From Eubacterium sp. (GTDB lineage: Bacteria > Bacillota > Clostridia > Lachnospirales > Lachnospiraceae): DNA of 64,000 bases. Position 1 is the stretch's first letter. Each line of letters opens with the position of its first letter. A program made the position numbers and the translations under genes. The stretch covers positions 1-64,000 of the forward strand of contig JAFOIV010000090.1 in NCBI GenBank assembly GCA_017420535.1, in the 5' to 3' direction. Shown here piece after piece: positions 3 to 47,784 of the stretch. Under the pieces are notes generated by a model. It searched no databases and had not been told where the DNA came from. It saw only the letters and a list, made by a program, of their open reading frames with translations.

Positions 3-770
3 GAGGATATTCATAATACAAAAGCGGAAGTAAACTATGATTCTCTTACTGGAACATTTTCAGTTCCAAGCAGAAGAGATATATGTGGAGATGATTATCA
101 ATATGCCTTTGCTCTGGATGAAAGAGGCATGGTTTTTATTGATTCCACGGGAGTTGTGGCTAGAATCTTAAGGAAGATAGCTCGTACCAAAAAGTGGAGA
201 ATGCCAAGTCTTGAAAGATTTATCTATGATTTCCTTGAAACAATAATTAATCGAGACCTTCATATTCTGGAAAGTTATGAAACAGAGCTGGCTGATATAG
301 AGGAAGATATTCTGGATCCTTCTACTGAGACAGACTTAACAAGAGTAAATGAAATAAGAAATGATCTGAGAAATCTTAGGATACATTATGAACAGCTGGT
401 GGATTTAGGCCAGGAATTCCAGGAAAATGAAAATAACTTCTTTAAGCATGAGAATACAAGATATTTCAGACTTTTTACTGATAGGGTGACCAGACTTCAC
501 GATTTTGCGGCATCACTTCGAGATTATACCATGCAGCTTCGTGATATGTACCGTACTCAGATTGAAGTAAAGCAGAACAGGATAATGACTATCCTTACAA
601 TAGTTACAACTATTTTTATGCCACTTACACTTATAGTAGGCTGGTATGGAATGAATTTCAAATATATGCCTGAACTTGATACAAGATGGGGATATCCGAT
701 AGTAATAGGAGTTAGTGCCTTTATCATATTTTCAGGATTATTATTTTTCAAAAAGAAAAAATTATTATAG
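3..770 (+). CDS. CorA-family divalent cation transporter, 5' end outside window
   Basis: C-terminal part of a CorA-type magnesium/cobalt channel subunit of the cytoplasmic membrane. The reading frame is open back to the first bases of the window, so the true start lies upstream; about 255 residues are visible. The end of the cytoplasmic alpha-helical stalk (a long charged helix region, roughly visible residues 80-180) leads into the first membrane helix, the family signature YGMNF, a short acidic loop and a second membrane helix ending in a Lys-rich tail. GMN is the selectivity signature of CorA, so cation transport is well supported; the exact ion (Mg, Co, Ni or Zn export) is not shown. No terminator is obvious behind it. 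Confidence 0.9.
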   Translation, partial: EDIHNTKAEVNYDSLTGTFSVPSRRDICGDDYQYAFALDERGMVFIDSTGVVARILRKIARTKKWRMPSLERFIYDFLETIINRDLHILESYETELADIEEDILDPSTETDLTRVNEIRNDLRNLRIHYEQLVDLGQEFQENENNFFKHENTRYFRLFTDRVTRLHDFAASLRDYTMQLRDMYRTQIEVKQNRIMTILTIVTTIFMPLTLIVGWYGMNFKYMPELDTRWGYPIVIGVSAFIIFSGLLFFKKKKLL

Positions 771-11910: not shown

Positions 11911-12078
11911 TATAAGCCTTCCTTCATTTCAAATAACCATACAAACGGAGTGAAGGTGATGACAACAATAGAGGACGAGCTTAGAAAATGTGAGTCCTTT
12001 GTTTTTAGTGTTGCATTTTTTACTCTTGGTGGTATTACTCCGCTTCTTCAGACACTTAAGGAACTTGAAGAAAAAAAG
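11911..12078 (+). pseudogene. diverged duplicate of the helicase gene's 5' end
   Basis: 168 bases align without gaps to 12461-12628, inside the helicase gene: YKPSFISN, HTNGVKVMTTIEDELRKCES, FVFSVAF, TLGGITPLLQTLKELEEK. About 20 differences, mainly at third codon positions, show that the copies evolved as coding sequence before this one was cut. It breaks at 12078, where the frame continues with unrelated residues to 12264, and nothing before 11911 matches the helicase N-terminus. Likely the leftover of a second helicase gene of the same family. Confidence 0.85.
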
Positions 12079-12288
12079 ATGACCAATGATATAATTAGAG
12101 AAATTGTTACTTTATTATATACACATAAAGAATTAGTAAGTAGTGAAGGAGTTCATAAAGGTTTCCAGAAGGGTAGTATAAATGAACACGAAAAAACGGA
12201 AACGTTTCGCAAGAGCGATGTGTGGTTTACCATACATGGCTCTATTTGTTTGATGTTATTATGATTATATATAGAACTATAGGTGCAT

Positions 12289-12382: not shown

Positions 12383-15300
12383 ATGAACAACTGTATTGAT
12401 AAAATAAAATCTGGTGCAACGACTGCTTTTATAGATTCGACATATAAATCCAATGCAGCATATAAGCCTTCCTTCATTTCAAATGACCATACAAACGGAG
12501 TGAAGGTGATGACTACGATAGAGGATGAACTACGTAAATGTGAGTCCTTTGTTTTTAGTGTTGCATTTATCACTCTTGGTGGAATAACTCCACTTCTTCA
12601 GACACTGAAAGAACTTGAAGAGAAAGGGATTCCAGGCAGGGTTCTTACTACAGATTACAATAATTTTACAGATCCTAAGGCTTTGGATAAGCTGGCGGAA
12701 CTTAAGAATATAGAACTCCGGATGTATAGAGAAGAAGCTGTGCCATTTGAAGCATATGAAACTGCTGATGGTGAAAAGACAGCAGTAGATACTGAGAGAA
12801 TAGGCTTTCATACAAAGGGTTATATATTCAAAAATGATGGCACATTTACAATTCTTATTGGTTCTTCAAATATGACTCAGAAGGCCCTTTCAGTTAATAA
12901 GGAATGGAATACAAAAGTTATTTCAACTGCTGAAGGAGAAATGTACCAAACTGTAAGTGGTGCATTTGATAAGCTTTGGAATGATAGAAGTCATACTAGG
13001 ACCTATGAGGAATTTATAGATGAATATAGGACAAAATATGAAACTATAAAGAGACAGAGAAAGATAGCTCTTGAAGCTGCTAAAAATGCAGTAGAAGTGG
13101 ATGCAAATAGTAGCGAGGGAAATAGCCAAAATAAAGGGGTTATATCTCTTGAGCAATATAGGTTAAAACCAAACTCCATGCAGGTAGACTTTATCAACAA
13201 CCTGAGCAAGCTGATTGATGATGGTGAGGACAAAGCTTTACTAATCAGTGCAACTGGGACGGGAAAAACTTATGCTTCTGCCTTCGGTGTACGTGATGCT
13301 CTTAATAAAATAGGAGCAAATGAACGTGTTCTTTTTGTTGTGCATAGAGAGCAGATCGCAAAACAGGCTATGAAGTCTTACAAAATGGTATTTGGAAATA
13401 CAAGAAAGTTTGGACTTCTCTCTGGAAATAATAAGGATATGGAAGCTGATTTCCTTTTTGCAACTATGCAAATGATGGCAAAAGAGGAAGTAATGCAGCA
13501 GTATGAAAAGAATCATTTTCAAACGATCATAATTGATGAGGCACATAGATCCGGTGCGAACAGCTATCAGAAAATAATGGATTACTTCAAACCAATGTTC
13601 TGGCTGGGAATGACTGCATCTCCGGAAAGAACCGATGATTTTGATGTTTTTGCAACATTTGATCATAACATAGCATTGGAAATCAGGCTTCAGCAGGCAA
13701 TGGAGGAGGACCTGTTATGTCCATTCCATTACTTTGGAATAACTGATTTTACGATAGATGGGGAAGCTATTGATGAAAAAACCATGTTTAATAAGCTGGT
13801 TTCAGATACAAGAGTTGACTACATAATAAAGCAGATAAAATACTACGGCTATTCGGGAGATAGAGTAAAGGGGTTAGTATTCTGTAGTTCCAAAAATGAG
13901 GCTATAAAGCTTAGCGAAATTTTTAATACTAGAGGATATAGAACTACAGCTTTAACTGGTGATGATAGTCAGGAAAAGAGAGAACGTGCAATTGAACAAC
14001 TGACAAAAGATGATGGGGATGATTATCTTGATTACATCTTTACGGTAGATATTTTTAACGAAGGTGTTGATATTCCTGAGATCAATCAGGTAATTATGCT
14101 TCGTCCTACGGAGTCACCTATAGTATTTGTACAACAGCTGGGTCGAGGACTCAGAAATTCAACAGACAAGGAGTTTGTTGTTATCCTGGATTTTATCGGT
14201 AATTACAAGAATAACTTTATGATCCCGATCGCACTTTCAGGAGATCGTACCTACAACAAAGATAATATTCGTCGTTATGTAGCAGAAGGAGAGAAAGTTA
14301 TTCCGGGAGCTTCAACAATACACTTTGATGAAATCTCAAAGAAGAAAATATATGCAGCAATTGATTCTGCCAACTTCAGCGATGTAAAACTTATCAAAGA
14401 GAACTATAAAAACCTGAAGAACAAGTTGGGAAGAATTCCTAAGCTGATGGACTTTGACAGGTATGGCGAGATGGATGTATTCCGGATCTTTGATAATAAT
14501 ACTCTTGGCTCATATTATAAGTTCCTTGTAAAATATGAGAATGATTATAAGATCAGACTTTCGGAAGATGAAGAGAAAGCGGTTGAGTTTATTTCAAAGA
14601 AGCTTGCGAATGGAAAACGAATTCATGAGTTAGAGCTTTTATCTCGAATGCTGGAATACAAAACAGGCTTGATAAGCGGACTTAAATCAGTGTTGAAGAA
14701 TAGATACTCGAAGGAGTGTACAACGAAGGAAATAAAGAGTGTTATTAACGTTATGACAAATGAATTTCCATCTGGTTCAGGAAAGAAGACATATGATATG
14801 TGTGTGTTTATTGAGAAAGATAATGATGGTGACTATAAGATAAGTCAAAGATATCAGTCTATGCTGAACCACAAGGAGTTTTATGACATAGTTAAAGAAT
14901 TAGTTGAGTTTGGCAGATACAGATATCAGAGAGATTATAGTAAGAATTACAGAGATACAGAATTAGTTCTGTATCAGAAATACACTTATGAGGATGCCTG
15001 CAGATTGCTTAACTGGGAGCATAATGAAGTGCCTCTCAATATCGGTGGCTACAAATTTGATAAGGAAACTAACACTTTTCCGGTATTTATAAATTATGAT
15101 AAAGCCGAAGATATACAGGATACAATAAAGTATGAGGATCATTTTGTTTCAAGAGATTCTCTTATAGCTATTTCAAAACAGAGTAGAACTGTAGAATCTG
15201 AAGATGTACAGAATTTTATTCACGCAGTTGAACGTGGAATTTCGGTTGAGCTCTTTGTACGTAAGAATAAAGATGATAAGGCATCGAAAGAATTCTATTA

Positions 15301-15436
15301 TCTTGGCAGAATGAAAGCAACAGGAGATACAACTGAATTTGTTATGGCAAATACAGATAAAACTGCTGTTGAAATAGGATGGAAGCTGGATACGCCGGTC
15401 AGGGAAGATATATACGAATATATTGTTAATGGATAG
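12383..15436 (+). CDS. PLD-nuclease / SF2 helicase / DUF3427 protein
   Basis: 1017-residue three-part DNA enzyme. The N-terminal ~220 residues are a phospholipase-D-type nuclease domain with one HxK site (HTKGYIF, His ~143, followed by IGSSNMT). Residues ~265-650 are a superfamily II helicase: SATGTGKT (288-295), DEAHR (385), TASPERTD, and motif VI QLGRGLR (585). The rest matches the DUF3427 C-terminal region. PLD-helicase-DUF3427 proteins are known in many bacteria and are suspected to act in restriction-like defence or repair; none of this is shown here. Start at 12383 gives a full PLD domain, though only a weak GAGG stands before it. It heads a unit with a 69-aa protein and a NUDIX enzyme. 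Confidence 0.9.
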   Translation: MNNCIDKIKSGATTAFIDSTYKSNAAYKPSFISNDHTNGVKVMTTIEDELRKCESFVFSVAFITLGGITPLLQTLKELEEKGIPGRVLTTDYNNFTDPKALDKLAELKNIELRMYREEAVPFEAYETADGEKTAVDTERIGFHTKGYIFKNDGTFTILIGSSNMTQKALSVNKEWNTKVISTAEGEMYQTVSGAFDKLWNDRSHTRTYEEFIDEYRTKYETIKRQRKIALEAAKNAVEVDANSSEGNSQNKGVISLEQYRLKPNSMQVDFINNLSKLIDDGEDKALLISATGTGKTYASAFGVRDALNKIGANERVLFVVHREQIAKQAMKSYKMVFGNTRKFGLLSGNNKDMEADFLFATMQMMAKEEVMQQYEKNHFQTIIIDEAHRSGANSYQKIMDYFKPMFWLGMTASPERTDDFDVFATFDHNIALEIRLQQAMEEDLLCPFHYFGITDFTIDGEAIDEKTMFNKLVSDTRVDYIIKQIKYYGYSGDRVKGLVFCSSKNEAIKLSEIFNTRGYRTTALTGDDSQEKRERAIEQLTKDDGDDYLDYIFTVDIFNEGVDIPEINQVIMLRPTESPIVFVQQLGRGLRNSTDKEFVVILDFIGNYKNNFMIPIALSGDRTYNKDNIRRYVAEGEKVIPGASTIHFDEISKKKIYAAIDSANFSDVKLIKENYKNLKNKLGRIPKLMDFDRYGEMDVFRIFDNNTLGSYYKFLVKYENDYKIRLSEDEEKAVEFISKKLANGKRIHELELLSRMLEYKTGLISGLKSVLKNRYSKECTTKEIKSVINVMTNEFPSGSGKKTYDMCVFIEKDNDGDYKISQRYQSMLNHKEFYDIVKELVEFGRYRYQRDYSKNYRDTELVLYQKYTYEDACRLLNWEHNEVPLNIGGYKFDKETNTFPVFINYDKAEDIQDTIKYEDHFVSRDSLIAISKQSRTVESEDVQNFIHAVERGISVELFVRKNKDDKASKEFYYLGRMKATGDTTEFVMANTDKTAVEIGWKLDTPVREDIYEYIVNG

Positions 15437-40401: not shown

Positions 40402-41496
40402 ATGGCAAAAAATATTTTAGTAACTACCGGTTCAACTTTTCAGGATTACGAGATCAAGGAATATCTCGGGGTTATAACAGGACAGGGCGTTTTGGGAAGC
40501 AATTTTATCAAGAGTCTTACAGCTAGTGTTTCTGATGCTTCAGAGCGTGAGAATGCAAAGCTTGAGAAGTGCAGAGAAGATGCTTCTGAAAAGATTGAGG
40601 CAGCAGCTGAGAAACTTGGAGCTAATGCTATTATCGGTATGAGACTGACATACGCATCCTGCGAAGGTGGTTCTTATGGAATCATTATTTCAGGAACAGC
40701 GGTAAAGATTGAGAAGAAGGCATGTCTTGAGAAGACAAGACATAAGGAACTTGTGGTTACAAATTATTATCTTAGGGTTGTTCCAAAACCGGTTAAGGTA
40801 ATACTTGATGGAAATGTCAGAGAAGTTTTGATGAAGGTACAGTTCTTTAATTATAATTTAGAGAATATACTGGCCATCAGAGCAAGTTTGGAATTTACAA
40901 ATCTCTATGATGAGAGATTAGTTATCAGAGATATTGATTTTGCATTTGAAAAGGGAAATGTATCTCTTATTGAAGCGGAAGCAACCGATGCGAAGATTTC
41001 AATGAATGATATGCTTCTTCTTAAGGATGCAAAATTAACAATAAATAAATATGCTACTCCTAATGGAGTATTTGCAGTAAATGACACTCCTGTAGATGTT
41101 ACAATGTCTGCTAAGAGACTTATGGCATTTAAGGAGAGACATGGAATAGATGCAGTTGAAAAATATAAGAACGATGGAATGATCTGGACATGTATGTGCG
41201 GACATATAAATGAAGGCGGTTCTGAGGAATGCCAGATATGTGGACGTAAGCAGTCAGAGATGAGAACTGAGGTTTCATTTAATTATGATGATATGATCAG
41301 AAGAATGAAAGGCAGAAAATCAGTTACAGAGATCAAAGACGTTCTTATGGATTATATTAAAGAGATTGATTCAAAATATAGACTTGAACTCCTTGAAATC
41401 ATGGAGTCAGGTATACAATATGAAAAGACCAGAGGAAATATGAAAGATACAGTTATCGAAAAGGTTGAGAAAGTCCTTGAAGATTGTCTTGCATAG
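40402..41496 (+). CDS. YbjQ (UPF0145)-domain protein with zinc ribbon
   Basis: 364 residues; start at 40402 with GGAGGGGG before it. Residues 1-105 are the YbjQ/heavy-metal-binding fold, which oligomerises in solved relatives (ILVTTGSTFQDYEIKEYLGV, KLGANAIIGMRLTY). The middle (~110-255) is beta-rich and unassigned (VVPKPVKVILDG). A zinc ribbon CxC...CxxC follows (WTCMCGHINEGGSEECQICG), then a helical tail. Function unknown. It heads four consecutive + strand genes that end in an MreB homologue; the next gene starts 28 bases later, so they probably share a transcript. Confidence 0.8.
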   Translation: MAKNILVTTGSTFQDYEIKEYLGVITGQGVLGSNFIKSLTASVSDASERENAKLEKCREDASEKIEAAAEKLGANAIIGMRLTYASCEGGSYGIIISGTAVKIEKKACLEKTRHKELVVTNYYLRVVPKPVKVILDGNVREVLMKVQFFNYNLENILAIRASLEFTNLYDERLVIRDIDFAFEKGNVSLIEAEATDAKISMNDMLLLKDAKLTINKYATPNGVFAVNDTPVDVTMSAKRLMAFKERHGIDAVEKYKNDGMIWTCMCGHINEGGSEECQICGRKQSEMRTEVSFNYDDMIRRMKGRKSVTEIKDVLMDYIKEIDSKYRLELLEIMESGIQYEKTRGNMKDTVIEKVEKVLEDCLA

Positions 41497-41523
41497 TAAT
41501 CTGGAGATGAATGAAATGTAAAG

Positions 41524-43752
41524 GTGGATAAGGTTTTGAGTGCTGGACTTAGTATGGCAAGCGTAAACAAAATAAAAGAACTGGCTTCAAGACATGAATA
41601 TAATGTCGCAGTTGATATCTTGGATTCACAGGAATTAGAGAAGTCTCTCAATCCACAGTTTTTACGTGTATGTGCAGAGGTGTACGAAAACGTAGGAAGG
41701 ATGAGAGAAGCCAGAGATCTTTATGTTAGGGCTCATTCCATAGCACCAGAAGCTAATATGATCATTCTCAGTCTTATAAACTTTCATTTAAAGAGAGGAT
41801 TTTATAATCTGGCTGAGAATTATAAAGAACAGTTTATTGCCACATCACCATCAGAACGTGGTCAGATCAATGGACAATATATCTTCGATAAGGCAAATGG
41901 CGCTGATTTAAAGGATCTTTATAATATGCTTTTCCCATATTACAGAGACAATATGGACGAAAAATATAGTTTTGAGCTTTACCTTGTTGCGAAATTAGCC
42001 GGGGAAAAGGAAACAGAAGATATAGTTTATAGTGATTACCTTGCTACATTTAAAAGAGGGGAATTCACTGACACTATAAGGAACATTAAAGAAGGTAAGG
42101 AAAAAGCTGAGGATTATTTTTATATCTATGCTACAGAGAGAAGGATTGATGATGATCCTTCGGAAGAAAATATCCGTCTTCTTGAAAAAGAACAGCTTGA
42201 GAAGGATTACCTTAGAATGTATCCGCCTGAAGAAGAAGCTATAATTCTTGAGGATGTGGTGGAAGAGAAGAAACCAAAGACTACAAGAAAGAAAAAGAAG
42301 AATAACCAAAGTGGCCAGAATCCTTCTGATGAAGCTGAAGGAGATGGCAGTGAAACGGATGAAGACGCTGAATCTACGGATAATGGCGTTGAGAATAAAT
42401 TAAAATCATTTATCAAAGATAAATTTAAGAAGAAGACCAGCGATGAGGGTGGTTCTGATGAGGAAGCCGGCTTAGAAGAACTTGAAGAGGGACAGCCAGT
42501 AAATCAGCCGGATTCATCAGATGACAGTCTTGTTGCCAGCATGGAAGAAAGCATTAAGATGGGTCAGGCTAAGGATACTAAGGAACCTGGTGATAGTGGT
42601 TCCATCCTTGATGCCATCCTTGGAGACAGAAGCAAGAAAGCTGAATCTCAAACTGCAACCTTTGGAGCGGAAGCCGGTAGGGGCAGACAGGAGATGCGCG
42701 AACTTAAACCGGAATTCTCTCAGGATGATGTGCTTTCATTTGATTTTGATAATGGTTTTGCTCCTGAATCAGAAAGTATTTCTGAGATGAGAGAAAGAGA
42801 TTCAGAGGATTATACAAATCCTTTTGATATCATAAATGCATATAAGATTGATGAGCAGGAAAGAAGAGAATCTGCTGAAGCTCTGGGAAGAAAGACACCT
42901 GAGGATATCAGAATAGAGCTTGAGATAAACAATGTAGATGATCAGTCTACTCCGGATGAAAATACTGCAGATCAGTCATACTCAGATCCTAGCGACATCG
43001 CTGAACAGACTCAGAGAGAACTTGATGAGAAGAAGGATGAGCAGGATATTAAGAATGCAGCAGACAGGATCAGCGGAGAAACATCAGCTGAAGATATGTA
43101 TCCAGATGACTTAAGGGTTGAACAGATGGAAACATATTTTAGACCTGAGGCTGAAGAGAATGCAGCAGAGCCAGTAGAGGATTCATATGAATCTGAAGCT
43201 GAGGCGCCTCGCTATGAAGAAACTGCAGAAACACCTGCAGAAGAATTTGTAGCAGAAGAAAATACAGAAGCTGCGGTTGAAGAAGCTGTAGCAGAAGAAA
43301 ATACAGAAGCTGCGGTTGAAGAGGCTGTAGCAAAGGAATATACAGAGGCTGCAGTTGAAGAAACTTTACATGAAGAAGAATCAGTAACTGCCCAGGAGGC
43401 AGTTGATGATAGATATGAAGAACAGCCTGTTGAGGAACATAGAGAAGTTCCTTATGCAGAGGAAATTCCGGATGCAGTTGAAGAAGCACTCAATAAGGCT
43501 AAAGAATCATTTTCCGCCAGTCTTGAAGAAGAAATCAGATCTGAAAGAGCTTATGAAGAAGAGCATTTTGGAAATATTACTTTCCCAGAATTTAAGACGG
43601 ATCTTTTCAATATCACAAGACATGAGAAAATTGAAAATAAGTTTGATGATATAGCCGAAGTTAAGAAGGAAGCTCTTGCCGAGAAATTGGAAGAGGAAGA
43701 AAGACTTCAAAGAGAAGCTGAAGAACTGCTTAGATCACTTGGAATTAAGTAG
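41524..43752 (+). CDS. large acidic protein with TPR-like N-terminus
   Basis: 742 residues from GTG at 41524; TTG 41536 (with AAGGTGG 8 bases before it) or ATG 41554 are alternative starts. Residues 1-200 look like tetratricopeptide helices (RVCAEVYENVGRMREARDLYVRAHSI, INFHLKRGFYNLAENYKEQF). From ~240 on it is very acidic and disordered, with a KTTRKKKKNNQSG basic patch and a 13-residue tandem repeat. It ends in a charged helix (EKLEEEERLQREAEELLRSLGIK). No catalytic motif or signal peptide: a cytoplasmic scaffold or adaptor seems likely. It sits directly before the coiled-coil AAA-like gene. Confidence 0.7.
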   Translation: MDKVLSAGLSMASVNKIKELASRHEYNVAVDILDSQELEKSLNPQFLRVCAEVYENVGRMREARDLYVRAHSIAPEANMIILSLINFHLKRGFYNLAENYKEQFIATSPSERGQINGQYIFDKANGADLKDLYNMLFPYYRDNMDEKYSFELYLVAKLAGEKETEDIVYSDYLATFKRGEFTDTIRNIKEGKEKAEDYFYIYATERRIDDDPSEENIRLLEKEQLEKDYLRMYPPEEEAIILEDVVEEKKPKTTRKKKKNNQSGQNPSDEAEGDGSETDEDAESTDNGVENKLKSFIKDKFKKKTSDEGGSDEEAGLEELEEGQPVNQPDSSDDSLVASMEESIKMGQAKDTKEPGDSGSILDAILGDRSKKAESQTATFGAEAGRGRQEMRELKPEFSQDDVLSFDFDNGFAPESESISEMRERDSEDYTNPFDIINAYKIDEQERRESAEALGRKTPEDIRIELEINNVDDQSTPDENTADQSYSDPSDIAEQTQRELDEKKDEQDIKNAADRISGETSAEDMYPDDLRVEQMETYFRPEAEENAAEPVEDSYESEAEAPRYEETAETPAEEFVAEENTEAAVEEAVAEENTEAAVEEAVAKEYTEAAVEETLHEEESVTAQEAVDDRYEEQPVEEHREVPYAEEIPDAVEEALNKAKESFSASLEEEIRSERAYEEEHFGNITFPEFKTDLFNITRHEKIENKFDDIAEVKKEALAEKLEEEERLQREAEELLRSLGIK
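43249..43365 (+). repeat. 39-bp tandem repeat, three copies, in coding DNA
   Basis: 43249-43287, 43288-43326, 43327-43365. Each encodes about VAEENTEAAVEEA. Copies 1 and 2 differ at one base; copy 3 is diverged. Confidence 0.9.
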
Positions 43753-43815
43753 AGTATTCAATTGGGGGATCCTTATTATAATTGGCACGCATAGAAGGAG
43801 GTACTAGAGAGAGTT

Positions 43816-46638
43816 ATGGACCAGAGAGAAGCACTTATCGCCGCTGTTAGAGCACAGGTAGAGAAGGAGCGTCAGGAGAAAGAGGAAAAGCTAAAAAAAC
43901 AAAAAGAGGCTGAAATTCTTGCAGGCAAGGGAAAGGCTGAGGCAAAAGTAGAAGATGATAAGCCAAAATACAAAACACTTTCAGCTGAAGAACTTGCAGA
44001 AATTGAGAAGAAGAAGCGTCAGAAGAGAGCAGAGGAGCTTGGTGTATCACTTGAGGAACTTGAAGGTGGCTTAAGTGGAGCAAGCAGCACTGGAGGTGGA
44101 CTTGGAAGTACAACTTCAGGAGGCGGACTTGGATCTGTTCCTTCAGGTGGACTTGGAAGCACAAGTTCAGAAGGCGGACTTGGACTTAATCTTGATGATA
44201 AGGTTAAGGTTGTAGATGGAAGCACTTCTAAGTGGGAGTCAGGCGGAAAGGTTGATGTTGCCAAGAAGACAGCAGATGATCTTGATAGCATACTTCCAGA
44301 ACATAAAGAGGGCGAGGCAAATATGTATGACCTTGAAGATGAGGCTAATACATCATTTGATGCTCAGTTAGGTAAGTTAGCAGATGAGACTCCTATCGAA
44401 GCTGCACCAGAAGAAAATAAGGAAGAAGCTACTGATAACAAGAAGAAAGAAAATGGCGTAGACAGAGCAGATGAAGAGCGTCGCAGAATTGAAGCTGCAC
44501 GTGAAAAGGCTGCTGCTAAGAAGCGCGAAGAAGAAGAAGCTCATAAGAAGGCTGAAAATGATGCCAAGGCTAAGGCAGAAGCTGAAAAGAAGAAGAAAGA
44601 AGAAGAAGCTAAGGCTAAGGCATTAGAAGAAGAGAGAAAGAAACGTGAAGCTGCAAATGCTAAGCGTGAAGCTGCAGCTGCTAAACGTAAAGCTCACAAT
44701 GATGAGAGAAGAAAAGCATCAGCTGGAACTAAGAAGAAAGTAGATAAAGAAGCTACAAAGAAGGCTAAAGAGGCTGCATTAAAGGCTGTTGAAGAAGCGC
44801 ATAAGAAGGTTGTTGAAGCAGAAGAGAAGTTAAACAAAGCTGGATCAGGCAAGATTGACTTTAATGCTTTACTTATGCAGCAGGCTAAGGAAGCGGCTGA
44901 AGGACAGGCTGCTCTTCAGCAGGCAAAAGCTGATATAGCTAAGAGAGAAGAAGATGCTAAGGCTTCAGGTGCTGCAGCAAAGACAAAGATTGAAGAAGCT
45001 GCTGCAACAAGAAAGAAAGCTGAAGAAGAAAAGATGGCAGGTCTCCTTAAGAAACATCAGGATAATGCTGCTGCAAGAAAAGAAAAGGCAACAGAAGCTG
45101 CTGCTGCTGCAAAGGCAGAGGCTGAAAAGCAGGTTGCTATAGTTGATAAGGCTAAAGAGGAGCTTGTTGCAAGACGTGCTGAAGAAGATAAGGCTTCAGA
45201 AGCTGCAAAGGCATCTCAGCAGCAGGTTATCGCAACTGCAGAGCAGGGTGTAAAGAAGGAAGAATTAAATGTTGTAGCTGCTAATGAAAACGTTAAGACA
45301 GCTGAAGACAAAGTAAAAGAACTTCAGGCTCTTGTTGAAGAGGCTAAGAAGAAAGTAGAAGCTGCTAAGGGTGTTGCTCTTGATGCTGTTAAGGGTAAGG
45401 ACGCAGCAGTTAAAGTTGTTGAAGATGAAAAGAAGAAGTTAGCTGATCTTGAGAAGAAGGATCAGGAAGTTGCTTCAAAGCGTAAGACTGAAGATGACAG
45501 CCTTGCTAAGAAGAGAGATGAGGCTGTAAAGAATATTCCTCTTGCTGTAGCTAAGTCAGAACAGGATGCAAAGGCAATCGAGATGGAAGCACTTAAGGCA
45601 GAAGAAGAAGAGAAGAAGGCACTTAATGCTGAATTTGATAAGGCTGCTCTTAAGGATGCTGAGGATATCAAGAAGGTTGAAGCTGATACAAGAGCGAGTC
45701 TTGATGCACTTAAGGCTGAGCTTGTAAAGGCAGAAGAAGACGAAAAGAAGGCAACTGAGGCTAGAGAAGAAAAGGCTAAGGCAGTTCTCTTAGGTGCTAA
45801 CTCAGCTCAGTCAGATGATGAGGTTCGTAAAGAAATTGAAGAAGCTCGTAAGGCTGAAGAAGAAGCTCGTAAGAAAGCAGATTCAATTGAAGTTGGTGGA
45901 GAAGAAGAAGTTCCGGTTATTGAAGAAGGAAAGCTTCCTCTTGCTGCTTATTACCTTGAGAAATACCTTGGATTCTCAGATGCAGCAGATGATGTGATCA
46001 CAGCATTTAATGATATAGCATCATTCCCAGAACTTCCAAAGAATGTAGTTGTCCTTGGACTTCATGGATTTGGTTCTGTTGCAGTTGGTGAAGATTTTGC
46101 AAGATCATTCTTTGATATGGGACTTATCAAATCAAAGACTATTGCAAAGATCAAAGCTCAGGGACTTAATAAGGTTTCAGATGAGAAACTTGAAGAGAGC
46201 ATGAAGAAACTTTCAGGTGGATGCCTTGTAGTTGAAAATGCTGGTCTTCTTACAGAGGATAGATTAAAGAAAGTTGTTGCACTTTCAAAGAAAGATAAAG
46301 ATGGATTCGGTATCATACTTACAGGTGAGAAGGAAAGACTTGTTGATCTTCTTATCAGTAAGCCAGAAATTGATGAAGCATTCCAGTATCATGTAGACTT
46401 CTCAACAATGACGGATGACGATATGAAGACTATCGGTCTTGCATATGTAATGCAGAGAGGATTCACATGGGATGAATCAGTTGATAAGAATCTCCGTAAC
46501 ATGCTTCTTGCAATGGAAACAGGTAACGTTGATCGTATGATCGCAGACCTTGATACTGTTATTGATAAGGCAGAGGCTAGAGAAAAAGCAGCTGGTAAAG
46601 AAGATGTTAGAAAGATTATGGGAGATGACTTTAAGTAA
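43816..46638 (+). CDS. coiled-coil protein with degenerate CbxX-like AAA+ domain
   Basis: 940 residues. 1-75: charged helix (MDQREALIAAVRAQVEKE). ~80-125: Gly/Ser repeats (GGGLGS). ~150-690: very long Lys/Glu/Ala coiled coil, with AAAAKAEAEK tracts. ~705-900: a domain laid out like CbxX/CfqX AAA+ ATPases, GLHGFGSVAVGEDFARSFF in place of GxxGxGKT (residue 751 on), CLVVENAGLLT in place of Walker B LFIDEA (803 on), then GIILTGEKERLVDLLI and FQYHVDFSTMTDDDMKTI. Both ATP-binding Lys and the catalytic Asp-Glu pair are lost, so it should not hydrolyse ATP. GAAGGAGG lies before ATG at a distance. Probably structural; neighbours include an MreB homologue. Confidence 0.8.
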   Translation: MDQREALIAAVRAQVEKERQEKEEKLKKQKEAEILAGKGKAEAKVEDDKPKYKTLSAEELAEIEKKKRQKRAEELGVSLEELEGGLSGASSTGGGLGSTTSGGGLGSVPSGGLGSTSSEGGLGLNLDDKVKVVDGSTSKWESGGKVDVAKKTADDLDSILPEHKEGEANMYDLEDEANTSFDAQLGKLADETPIEAAPEENKEEATDNKKKENGVDRADEERRRIEAAREKAAAKKREEEEAHKKAENDAKAKAEAEKKKKEEEAKAKALEEERKKREAANAKREAAAAKRKAHNDERRKASAGTKKKVDKEATKKAKEAALKAVEEAHKKVVEAEEKLNKAGSGKIDFNALLMQQAKEAAEGQAALQQAKADIAKREEDAKASGAAAKTKIEEAAATRKKAEEEKMAGLLKKHQDNAAARKEKATEAAAAAKAEAEKQVAIVDKAKEELVARRAEEDKASEAAKASQQQVIATAEQGVKKEELNVVAANENVKTAEDKVKELQALVEEAKKKVEAAKGVALDAVKGKDAAVKVVEDEKKKLADLEKKDQEVASKRKTEDDSLAKKRDEAVKNIPLAVAKSEQDAKAIEMEALKAEEEEKKALNAEFDKAALKDAEDIKKVEADTRASLDALKAELVKAEEDEKKATEAREEKAKAVLLGANSAQSDDEVRKEIEEARKAEEEARKKADSIEVGGEEEVPVIEEGKLPLAAYYLEKYLGFSDAADDVITAFNDIASFPELPKNVVVLGLHGFGSVAVGEDFARSFFDMGLIKSKTIAKIKAQGLNKVSDEKLEESMKKLSGGCLVVENAGLLTEDRLKKVVALSKKDKDGFGIILTGEKERLVDLLISKPEIDEAFQYHVDFSTMTDDDMKTIGLAYVMQRGFTWDESVDKNLRNMLLAMETGNVDRMIADLDTVIDKAEAREKAAGKEDVRKIMGDDFK

Positions 46639-46676
46639 GATATAGGATACTTAATTAAATCTTTAGTTTACAAATT

Positions 46677-46715
46677 ACCCCCTAGTACATATAATTTATG
46701 TGCTAGGGGTTTTTT
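46677..46715 (+). terminator. intrinsic terminator after the coiled-coil gene
   Basis: CCCCTAGTACATA and TATGTGCTAGGGG stem, then T6. It splits the mreB-like gene into a separate or read-through unit. Confidence 0.85.
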
Positions 46716-46770
46716 ATTAAGGCCCATCCCCTTACCCGGGGTACGAAATGTATTTAAAGGAGTTTAAACT

Positions 46771-47784
46771 ATGTATCGCATAGATATGGGTATAGATCTT
46801 GGCACATCAAATGTGTGTATATATATGAGAGATAAAGGTATTGTAATAAGCCAGCCGGCGGTGGTTGCTTATCAGACAAAGGAAAAGAATATCCTGGCGG
46901 TTGGAACAAAAGCAAAGAAAATGTTAGGAAAAACCCCGGAAGGTATTACAGTTGAAAAGCCTTTAACTCATGGTGTAATTTCAAGTTATACATTAACAGA
47001 AAGAATGATAAAAGCATTTGTAAAGAATGCTTTGAAGAAAAGAAAGATCTGGGGCAGACCAAATGTATGTGTCTGTGTGCCATCAGGAATAACTGAAGTT
47101 GAAAAACAGGCAGTGGAAGATGCAGTAGTAAGAACCGGGGCAGGACAGGTTTTCGTATTAGAAGCTCCTATTGCTGCAGCTATCGGAACTGGAGTAGATA
47201 TAATGGAAACTGTTGGCCATATGGTAGTTGATATCGGAGGCGGAACAACGGATATAGCTATCCTTTCTGCGGGAAATATTGCCGCTGGGACTACAATAAA
47301 AACTGCAGGAAATGAATTTACAGAAGCGCTTCAGAAGTATGTAAGAAGAACATATAACATAGAACTTGGTGAACTTACAGCAGAAGATGCAAAGATGGAA
47401 GTTGGATCAGTTTATAAGAGAAAGACCGATGTATCTTACCAGATAAAGGGTAAGAATCTGCTTAATGGACTGCCGGTACGTCTTGATCTTACTGCAAATG
47501 AGACAGTGGAAGCTTTTGCGGAAGAATCTGCAAAGATAGTGGAAGCTATAACATCTGTTCTTGAAACTGCTCCTCCTGAACTGGTTTCAGATGTGGCTAA
47601 AGAAGGGATTTTCCTTTCGGGTGGAGGCAGCGAGATTTATGGAATGGATAAGCTTATCGCTGAAAAAACAGGCCTCAGAGTAACAAAATCCGATGAACCA
47701 GAAAATGTAGTAGCTGCAGGAGCCGGAATGGCAGGTGAATACATTATGGTAGTGGATGAAGATAAAAGAGAAAAAAATCTGTAA
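46771..47784 (+). CDS. MreB/Mbl-family bacterial actin
   Basis: 337-residue actin-fold ATPase. Phosphate 1 GIDLGTSNVCIY, connect 1 region (VCVCVPSGITEVEKQAVEDA), phosphate 2 VVDIGGGTTDIAIL, adenosine GIFLSGGGSEIYGMDKLI, and the typical EAPIAAAIGTG. MreB filaments guide lateral wall synthesis in rods. mreC and mreD, normally next to mreB, are absent, so this is more likely an Mbl/MreBH-like paralogue. AAAGGAG before ATG. It follows the coiled-coil/AAA-like gene after a terminator. Confidence 0.9.
   Translation: MYRIDMGIDLGTSNVCIYMRDKGIVISQPAVVAYQTKEKNILAVGTKAKKMLGKTPEGITVEKPLTHGVISSYTLTERMIKAFVKNALKKRKIWGRPNVCVCVPSGITEVEKQAVEDAVVRTGAGQVFVLEAPIAAAIGTGVDIMETVGHMVVDIGGGTTDIAILSAGNIAAGTTIKTAGNEFTEALQKYVRRTYNIELGELTAEDAKMEVGSVYKRKTDVSYQIKGKNLLNGLPVRLDLTANETVEAFAEESAKIVEAITSVLETAPPELVSDVAKEGIFLSGGGSEIYGMDKLIAEKTGLRVTKSDEPENVVAAGAGMAGEYIMVVDEDKREKNL

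Follow-up and report, generated by a model that had tools for sequence, protein, structure and literature searches.

The window (the whole 64,000-nucleotide stretch of DNA analysed here) corresponds to contig C79 in a draft genome of 2.67 Mb. It carries four consecutive plus-strand genes, flanked upstream by thymidylate synthase and dihydrofolate reductase-like genes and downstream by thiolase/crotonase/hydroxybutyryl-CoA dehydrogenase genes. A sequence-only reading had set these four genes between folate and butyrate genes and proposed them as a candidate system; all four open reading frames are real, and they and their flanks lie where that reading placed them. The genes and their features are listed here, with genes numbered in the order of transcription.

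40402..41496, + strand: gene 1, YbjQ / beta-sandwich / zinc-ribbon / helical protein, 364 aa (open reading frame; domain layout from a moderate-confidence model)
40414..40710, + strand: YbjQ domain, residues 5-103 (Pfam PF01906, E 1.5e-20; the model matches 1y2i and 1vr4)
41185..41253, + strand: zinc ribbon W-x-C-x-C-x3-N-x6-C-x2-C (Cys invariant in 23 rows; low confidence in the model)
41524..43752, + strand: gene 2, TPR-acidic linker protein, 742 aa from GTG, the N-terminal half of fused relatives
41554..42228, + strand: TPR domain of gene 2 (profile against PDB TPR chains; its HMM matches the N-terminus of 15 fused proteins)
42229..43563, + strand: variable acidic linker of gene 2 (low conservation per 20-residue block; charge)
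43684..43749, + strand: conserved C-terminal helix of gene 2, beside the break point (conservation 0.81 in block 721-740, 23 crown rows)
43816..46638, + strand: gene 3, rod-pseudo-AAA protein, 940 aa, the C-terminal half of fused relatives
43819..43869, + strand: N-terminal peptide of gene 3, DQREALIAAVRAQVEKE (the protein's most conserved block, 0.94)
44458..45900, + strand: charged helical rod, about 480 residues (composition, periodicity and salt-bridge analysis)
45934..46635, + strand: CbbX/CbxX-type AAA domain lacking both the Walker A Lys and the Walker B acidic pair
46667..46715, + strand: intrinsic terminator, hairpin 46679-46709, enclosing a -10 box at 46690-46695, with a -35 box at 46667-46672 (promoter-like site for mreB)
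46771..47784, + strand: gene 4, MreB paralogue of a lineage-specific clade, 337 aa

Domain composition of the four proteins

Gene 1 had been described as a YbjQ domain coupled to a zinc ribbon, and both parts are recovered: PF01906 scores 74.1 bits against a gathering cut-off of 23, and the four ribbon cysteines show no variation across the 23 aligned rows. We take the ribbon to be RanBP2-like. The predicted model of the protein, of moderate confidence (pTM 0.38), consists of YbjQ, a beta-sandwich, the ribbon and a helical tail. Foldseek returned confident PDB matches for YbjQ only (1vr4 and 1y2i) and none for the beta-sandwich, zinc ribbon or helical tail; at this pTM, the absent matches are no evidence of a new fold.

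Gene 2 has a net charge of -106, and its homologues suggest a TTG start at 41536 rather than the GTG at 41524. Its earlier description as an acidic TPR-like protein of about 740 residues is borne out. The single sequence gives a weak TPR match (E 0.017), whereas a 12-row profile matches engineered TPR chains in the PDB clearly (E 6.9e-9 and 1.7e-8) and the natural protein PA4667 at 9.4e-4. The TPR_14 model is matched by 11 of the 12 members at E <= 0.1 (best 6.9e-6), placing the protein among TPR proteins.

The long central part of gene 3 had been read as about 540 residues of coiled coil, a description that may hold for parts of it. Residues 215-695 contain 24% Ala, 18% Glu, 19% Lys and 14.6% ILVMF. 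Their ILVMF heptad power is weak overall: 52 of 500 shuffles equal it when the period is 3.5, and 19 of 500 do so when it is 7. The strongest window at period 3.5 is 455-554 (2/500 shuffles), window 395-494 reaches a similar level at period 3.6 (3/500), and windows 215-314 and 275-374 are weaker (22/500 and 18/500). Helical salt bridges number 149 against 82.7 +- 6.8, a count that none of 500 shuffles reaches. By these measures, a single charged helix fits most of the rod better than a coiled coil does, with coiled-coil stretches possible in parts; the heptad periodicity that coiled-coil filament proteins (IF-like) would show along their rod is weak overall and stands out in windows 455-554 and 395-494. 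If it were one helix, the rod would by arithmetic be about 70 nm long.

The C-terminal domain of gene 3 is of the CbbX type (E 2.8e-19; model pLDDT 89), with an AAA fold and a CbbX-like order of elements. Its motifs agree with the earlier claim of an AAA+-like C-terminus lacking ATP residues: GLHGFGSV stands where Walker A would read GxxxxGK[ST], and VVENA where Walker B would supply Asp-Glu. The P-loop Lys is present in 0 of 11 clade genomes versus 23 of 28 other relatives, and the Walker B Glu is retained in 4 of 39 genomes. Genome G448 also has a second, stand-alone protein of 419 aa away from the locus (L215:9402-10661, minus strand), which combines an AAA domain without the P-loop Lys and a charged N-terminal part.

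Neither the TPR protein nor the rod-AAA protein of the window matches a Pfam or NCBIfam model above cut-off, and Rfam finds only a tRNA over the window. A reading as a defence system was dropped, the PADLOC anti-phage defence models yielding a single weak match, to MreB (E 0.0094). None of the titles listed in searches of the literature describes this system. Elsewhere in the window, two successive genes at 950-2428 encode N-termini with GFTLVELI, which we take to be type IV prepilin-like, and the adjacent open reading frames 11950-12264 and 12383-15436 share a stretch near their starts, VKVMTTIEDELRKCESFVFSVAFF, which suggests a partial duplication.

Genes 2 and 3 as halves of one protein

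Sequence comparison establishes that genes 2 and 3 correspond to one Lachnospiraceae protein. The C-terminal 234 residues of gene 3, searched in 150 Lachnospiraceae genera at E <= 1e-3, were matched in 129, and the weakest of these matches may represent other CbxX proteins. Among 291 genomes sampled across the class, only nine have an AAA match at E <= 1e-38, all nine listed as Lachnospiraceae, and the best match elsewhere is 3.4e-23. We took 20 regions, comprising three crown loci, two split loci (G002 and G106) and 15 regions in which one protein of about 530-1320 aa is encoded. In every one of these unsplit divergent regions (15 of 15), the same open reading frame is matched by the TPR HMM of gene 2 at its N-terminus (E 7e-9 to 7e-49) and by the AAA HMM of gene 3 at its C-terminus, so that the two genes belong together, as the sequence-only reading had it. 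When the intact AAA domain of G036 was compared with the source genome, its best match was gene 3 of the window (E 1.6e-14), and its sole other match had E 1.7e-4.

The direction of change was probably fission, not fusion. CbbX and most fused forms keep an intact P-loop, which backs fission, and in a tree of the TPR and AAA parts the fused proteins of G605 and G131, both with a dead P-loop, cluster with the split proteins (G040 and L008 are identical rows). The root was placed on eight other fused rows; with one row on the wrong side, these do not form one side of any branch, and fission is therefore favoured rather than demonstrated. In the same tree the fork that holds G131, G002 and the rest is left open, so the gene may have split once or more than once. 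The break point lies just before DQREALIAAVRAQVEKE, because the fused G131 protein contains this peptide and the fused G605 protein a variant of it; none of the ten further fused proteins checked showed it. The tail of gene 2, conserved at 0.81 in the crown, differs in G002 and G106.

Neighbourhood, MreB paralogue and terminator

A scan of genome contigs provided 31 related loci, in records labelled Lachnospiraceae, Eubacterium or Clostridium, among them the cultured carrier Eubacterium ruminantium ATCC 17233 (L015). Nine of them end before the upstream genes and one (L028) ends before MreB; in L007 gene 3 does not form a single open frame. The order YbjQ/zinc-ribbon, TPR, rod/AAA is found in all 22 loci that reach far enough upstream, with gaps of 11-117 bases, and MreB comes next in all 30 that reach far enough downstream. 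A conserved-neighbourhood analysis had been proposed as a check, and while gene order is indeed kept, its flanks are kept equally: thyA and folA lie upstream in 22/22 loci, and thl, whole or cut, lies downstream in 28/31, the other three (L016, L027 and L028) ending first. Adjacency within the crown is therefore not specific evidence of shared function.

Layouts in some further genomes are more varied. Genomes G668 and G106 have YbjQ, two genes, rhomboid, TPR, AAA, MreB, radical SAM and thl, and thyA/folA were not found in the DNA of them that was examined; G472 has thyA, folA, one gene, YbjQ, rhomboid, TPR, AAA, MreB, radical SAM and thl; G236 is arranged as in the window. All four retain the adjacency of AAA and MreB. 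In G002, rhomboid-TPR-AAA is followed on its contig C45 by a gene that we take to be argG, thyA-YbjQ lies on its C7, and MreB-radical SAM lies mid-contig on its C64. MreB is here truly apart from TPR-AAA. YbjQ ends about 140 bases from the C7 end and the rhomboid gene starts about 200 bases from a C45 end; these two groups may therefore adjoin across an assembly gap. Independent scattering of the genes, which the sequence-only reading had named as evidence against a common system, is thus seen for MreB in G002 only. Judging by these moved lineages, the MreB-radical SAM link is at least as stable as the AAA-MreB link.

The rhomboid gene immediately precedes the TPR gene in four split lineages, as identified by Pfam in L066 (E 6.3e-32) and L068 (2.9e-31) and by BLAST in L217, whose TPR gene contains a run of N, and L218, and no rhomboid gene stands between YbjQ and TPR in the crown loci. 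For the fused protein, a second conserved partner was sought and rejected: only glgB recurs in most regions among the clusters printed, and the 760-785 aa neighbours of the fused genes are similar in size without forming one family. Co-occurrence yields Fisher values of 1.4e-8 and 8.7e-5 with shared ancestry ignored, and these are not independent tests because every MreB/YbjQ link could be one clade's inheritance.

Gene 4 is an MreB (Pfam E 6.8e-114), belonging to the actin-fold family and carrying its phosphate motifs. No mreC or mreD lies beside it, in agreement with the earlier description of an actin homologue without these genes. The source genome encodes a second MreB on its contig C45, 46% identical to the locus MreB, and its mreC lies on contig C53 downstream of radC, not of mreB as in a classical mreBCD operon. 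In the 16 Lachnospiraceae genomes compared, those outside the clade all have mreB ahead of mreC (9 of 9), against 0 of 7 within it (G000, G002, G040, G070, G106, G129 and G131), a count that leaves out a second MreC match of G099 in a larger open reading frame without mreB. The mre-operon mreB of the nine genomes (L159-L165, L170 and L175) is highly divergent with altered phosphate motifs; VDIGADTTEIS occurs in 2 of the 9 proteins, and the Mbl-like copy changes slowly.

A tree that includes outgroups from other families of Clostridia gathers the locus MreBs, with the unlinked G002 copy among them, into one clade (100/100) on a long branch (0.52). This clade joins the Lachnospiraceae Mbl-like MreB (27 rows, 100/99) and stands apart from the mre-operon MreBs. 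Adding the best MreBs of 22 more Lachnospiraceae genera in a quick tree keeps the 14 locus rows together (SH-aLRT 100), and none of 35 other MreBs placed falls inside the clade; that of G067, which like that of G002 is 51% identical to the window's, lies outside. Nucleotide motifs are largely retained within the clade, with a few rows differing at the glutamate position of one motif. An origin by relocation of the mre-operon mreB is not favoured, the outgroup tree joining the locus MreB to the Mbl-like clade, though long branches are present. G131 has only an Mbl-like MreB and no YbjQ/ribbon match, so that loss of the mre-operon mreB seems older than gain of the private MreB; G002 has a locus-type MreB only, at E <= 1e-40. 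The non-YbjQ part of gene 1 (alignment A1) is found in 8 of 150 Lachnospiraceae genera; its ribbon-bearing C-terminus occurs in 6 of 7 genera of the clade versus 2 of 143 others, and the two outside genera (G143 and G027) have distant matches and both retain the mre-operon mreB.

The terminator previously predicted at 46677-46715, between gene 3 and mreB, is upheld, its hairpin being the strongest in the region scanned. This hairpin encloses a TATAAT, which 17 bp separate from a -35 box on its upstream side. Across both strands of the 31 loci, 107 TATAAT sites have a -35-like partner; 17 of these are enclosed by a hairpin, all at this junction and with a 17-bp spacer, while none of the remaining 90 is enclosed by a terminator-like hairpin. 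Within the window, 1 of 16 promoter-like sites is enclosed. When minimum free energy (MFE) folds are counted together with five spacers of 16 bp recognised by eye (L020, L021 and L023-L025), the nested site is present in 25 of 36 junction rows, or 24 of 35 distinct ones, taking L063, L064, L065 and L214 as the same contigs as L007, L008, L014 and L022, respectively. The eleven rows without it are L004-L006, L009-L011, L032, L068, L216, L217 and L218, and L216 has TATCAT in the hairpin. Between loci the hairpin arms vary, and the TATAAT and its spacing stay. Transcription from the nested site would start inside the 3' arm of the hairpin, and therefore only transcripts arriving from upstream would form it. 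Polymerases from upstream could occlude mreB transcription.

A probable scaffold and its possible link to MreB

A scaffold built from the TPR and pseudo-AAA proteins is well supported. The Lachnospiraceae protein joins a TPR adaptor, a long acidic or charged linker and a CbbX-type AAA module; in the clade, the AAA has lost its ATPase residues, the linker has become a long charged helical rod, and the gene has probably been split. Binding between the two products has probably persisted, and together they would form a cytoplasmic scaffold, in which the pseudo-AAA may serve as an oligomerising hub, the rod as a spacer and the TPR as a client-binding arm. The sequence-only reading had proposed a cytoplasmic scaffold or cytoskeletal apparatus of all four genes. 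The pairing of genes 2 and 3 and the dead AAA make a scaffold the best reading, whereas placing YbjQ/ribbon and MreB in the same pathway goes beyond what is established; a shape pathway shared by the scaffold, MreB and YbjQ is plausible.

The locus MreB is a private paralogue akin to the Mbl-like MreB, and the seven clade genomes compared have no mreBCD-operon mreB. The likeliest role of the scaffold may be to position this MreB and, via it, the MreC, MreD and PBP2 encoded elsewhere, and the YbjQ/zinc-ribbon protein could perhaps be an accessory sensor or adaptor. That the halves of the split scaffold bind each other and position the private MreB as an accessory elongasome module may well be true, although we stop just short of expecting it. 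Through the nested promoter-like site, mreB is linked to the 3' end of gene 3. Against the link, the terminator parts the two genes, the G002 MreB is unlinked, and the fused relatives do not lie beside shape genes; the gene 2 tail, lost from G002 and G106, also speaks against the wider reading. The earlier caution that the actin may be only a neighbour thus keeps part of its force, and is weakened by the dedicated paralogue, the missing mre-operon mreB and the promoter-like site nested in the terminator. A fuller version is unlikely when taken as a whole: a previously undescribed, lineage-specific elongasome module with a dead-AAA scaffold, a rod of about 70 nm, a split gene, a joined YbjQ/ribbon protein and a private MreB promoter inside the scaffold terminator, through which transcription of the scaffold could occlude the actin.

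Alternatively, the TPR/pseudo-AAA pair may be a scaffold or protein-remodelling relic unrelated to MreB, with MreB and YbjQ as mere neighbours in a conserved block. This alternative carries real weight, though we doubt it more readily than we accept it. It would account for thyA-folA and thl being as conserved as the four genes, for the terminator before mreB, for the unlinked G002 MreB that retains its radical SAM neighbour instead, and for the fused relatives adjoining glgB. It would leave unexplained why none of the 35 other MreBs placed falls among the locus-type MreBs, why the same lineages have no mre-operon mreB, and why AAA-MreB persists in G106 and G668, with extra genes between YbjQ and TPR and thyA/folA not found in the DNA examined.

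The position of glgB also admits a scaffold for glycogen or carbohydrate storage, in which the fused form would organise GlgB and the split form would keep that role at a new place. In 9 of the 15 fused regions (L072-L080) the fused gene immediately precedes glgB, and glgB adjoins it in G477 and is nearby in G605; the other 6 of 15 regions lack glgB beside the gene, and none was recognised at the four split loci searched (L214 and L216-L218), making this role rather improbable. A type VII secretion-like ATPase, resembling EccA with its TPR and CbxX-type AAA, is less probable by far. The AAA of EccA1 ranks second among the PDB proteins matched by sequence (E 6.3e-11), and EccA of ESX systems joins TPR and a CbxX-type AAA in the same layout, but gene 3 has lost the ATP residues, and no secretion gene stands among the named neighbours; EccA did not come up in the TPR-profile search of the PDB, which has no clear bearing on this reading. 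Should the preferred reading hold, with a private MreB organised by the split form, the locus would show how wall elongation proceeds without the classical mre-operon mreB; it would also be a clear example of an enzyme that became a scaffold and whose intermediates are still alive.

Several known systems come close to parts of the locus. Compared with EccA of ESX (type VII) secretion, whose AAA resembles that of gene 3, the proteins here have a long acidic or charged linker, a split gene and lost ATP residues, and no secretion gene is among the named neighbours. Compared with CbbX, the red-type Rubisco activase of the CbxX/CfqX AAA+ family, gene 3 lacks the Walker A Lys and Walker B Asp-Glu, TPR and a long rod have been added, and no Rubisco gene is among the named neighbours. 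Gene 1 shares with YbjQ (PF01906) proteins an N-terminal domain that matches the solved 1vr4 and 1y2i, and differs from them by its extra beta-sandwich, zinc ribbon and helical tail. The locus MreB is of the same family as MreB/Mbl of the Rod system and largely retains its nucleotide motifs, but it forms its own paralogue clade on a long branch and is encoded away from mreC and mreD.
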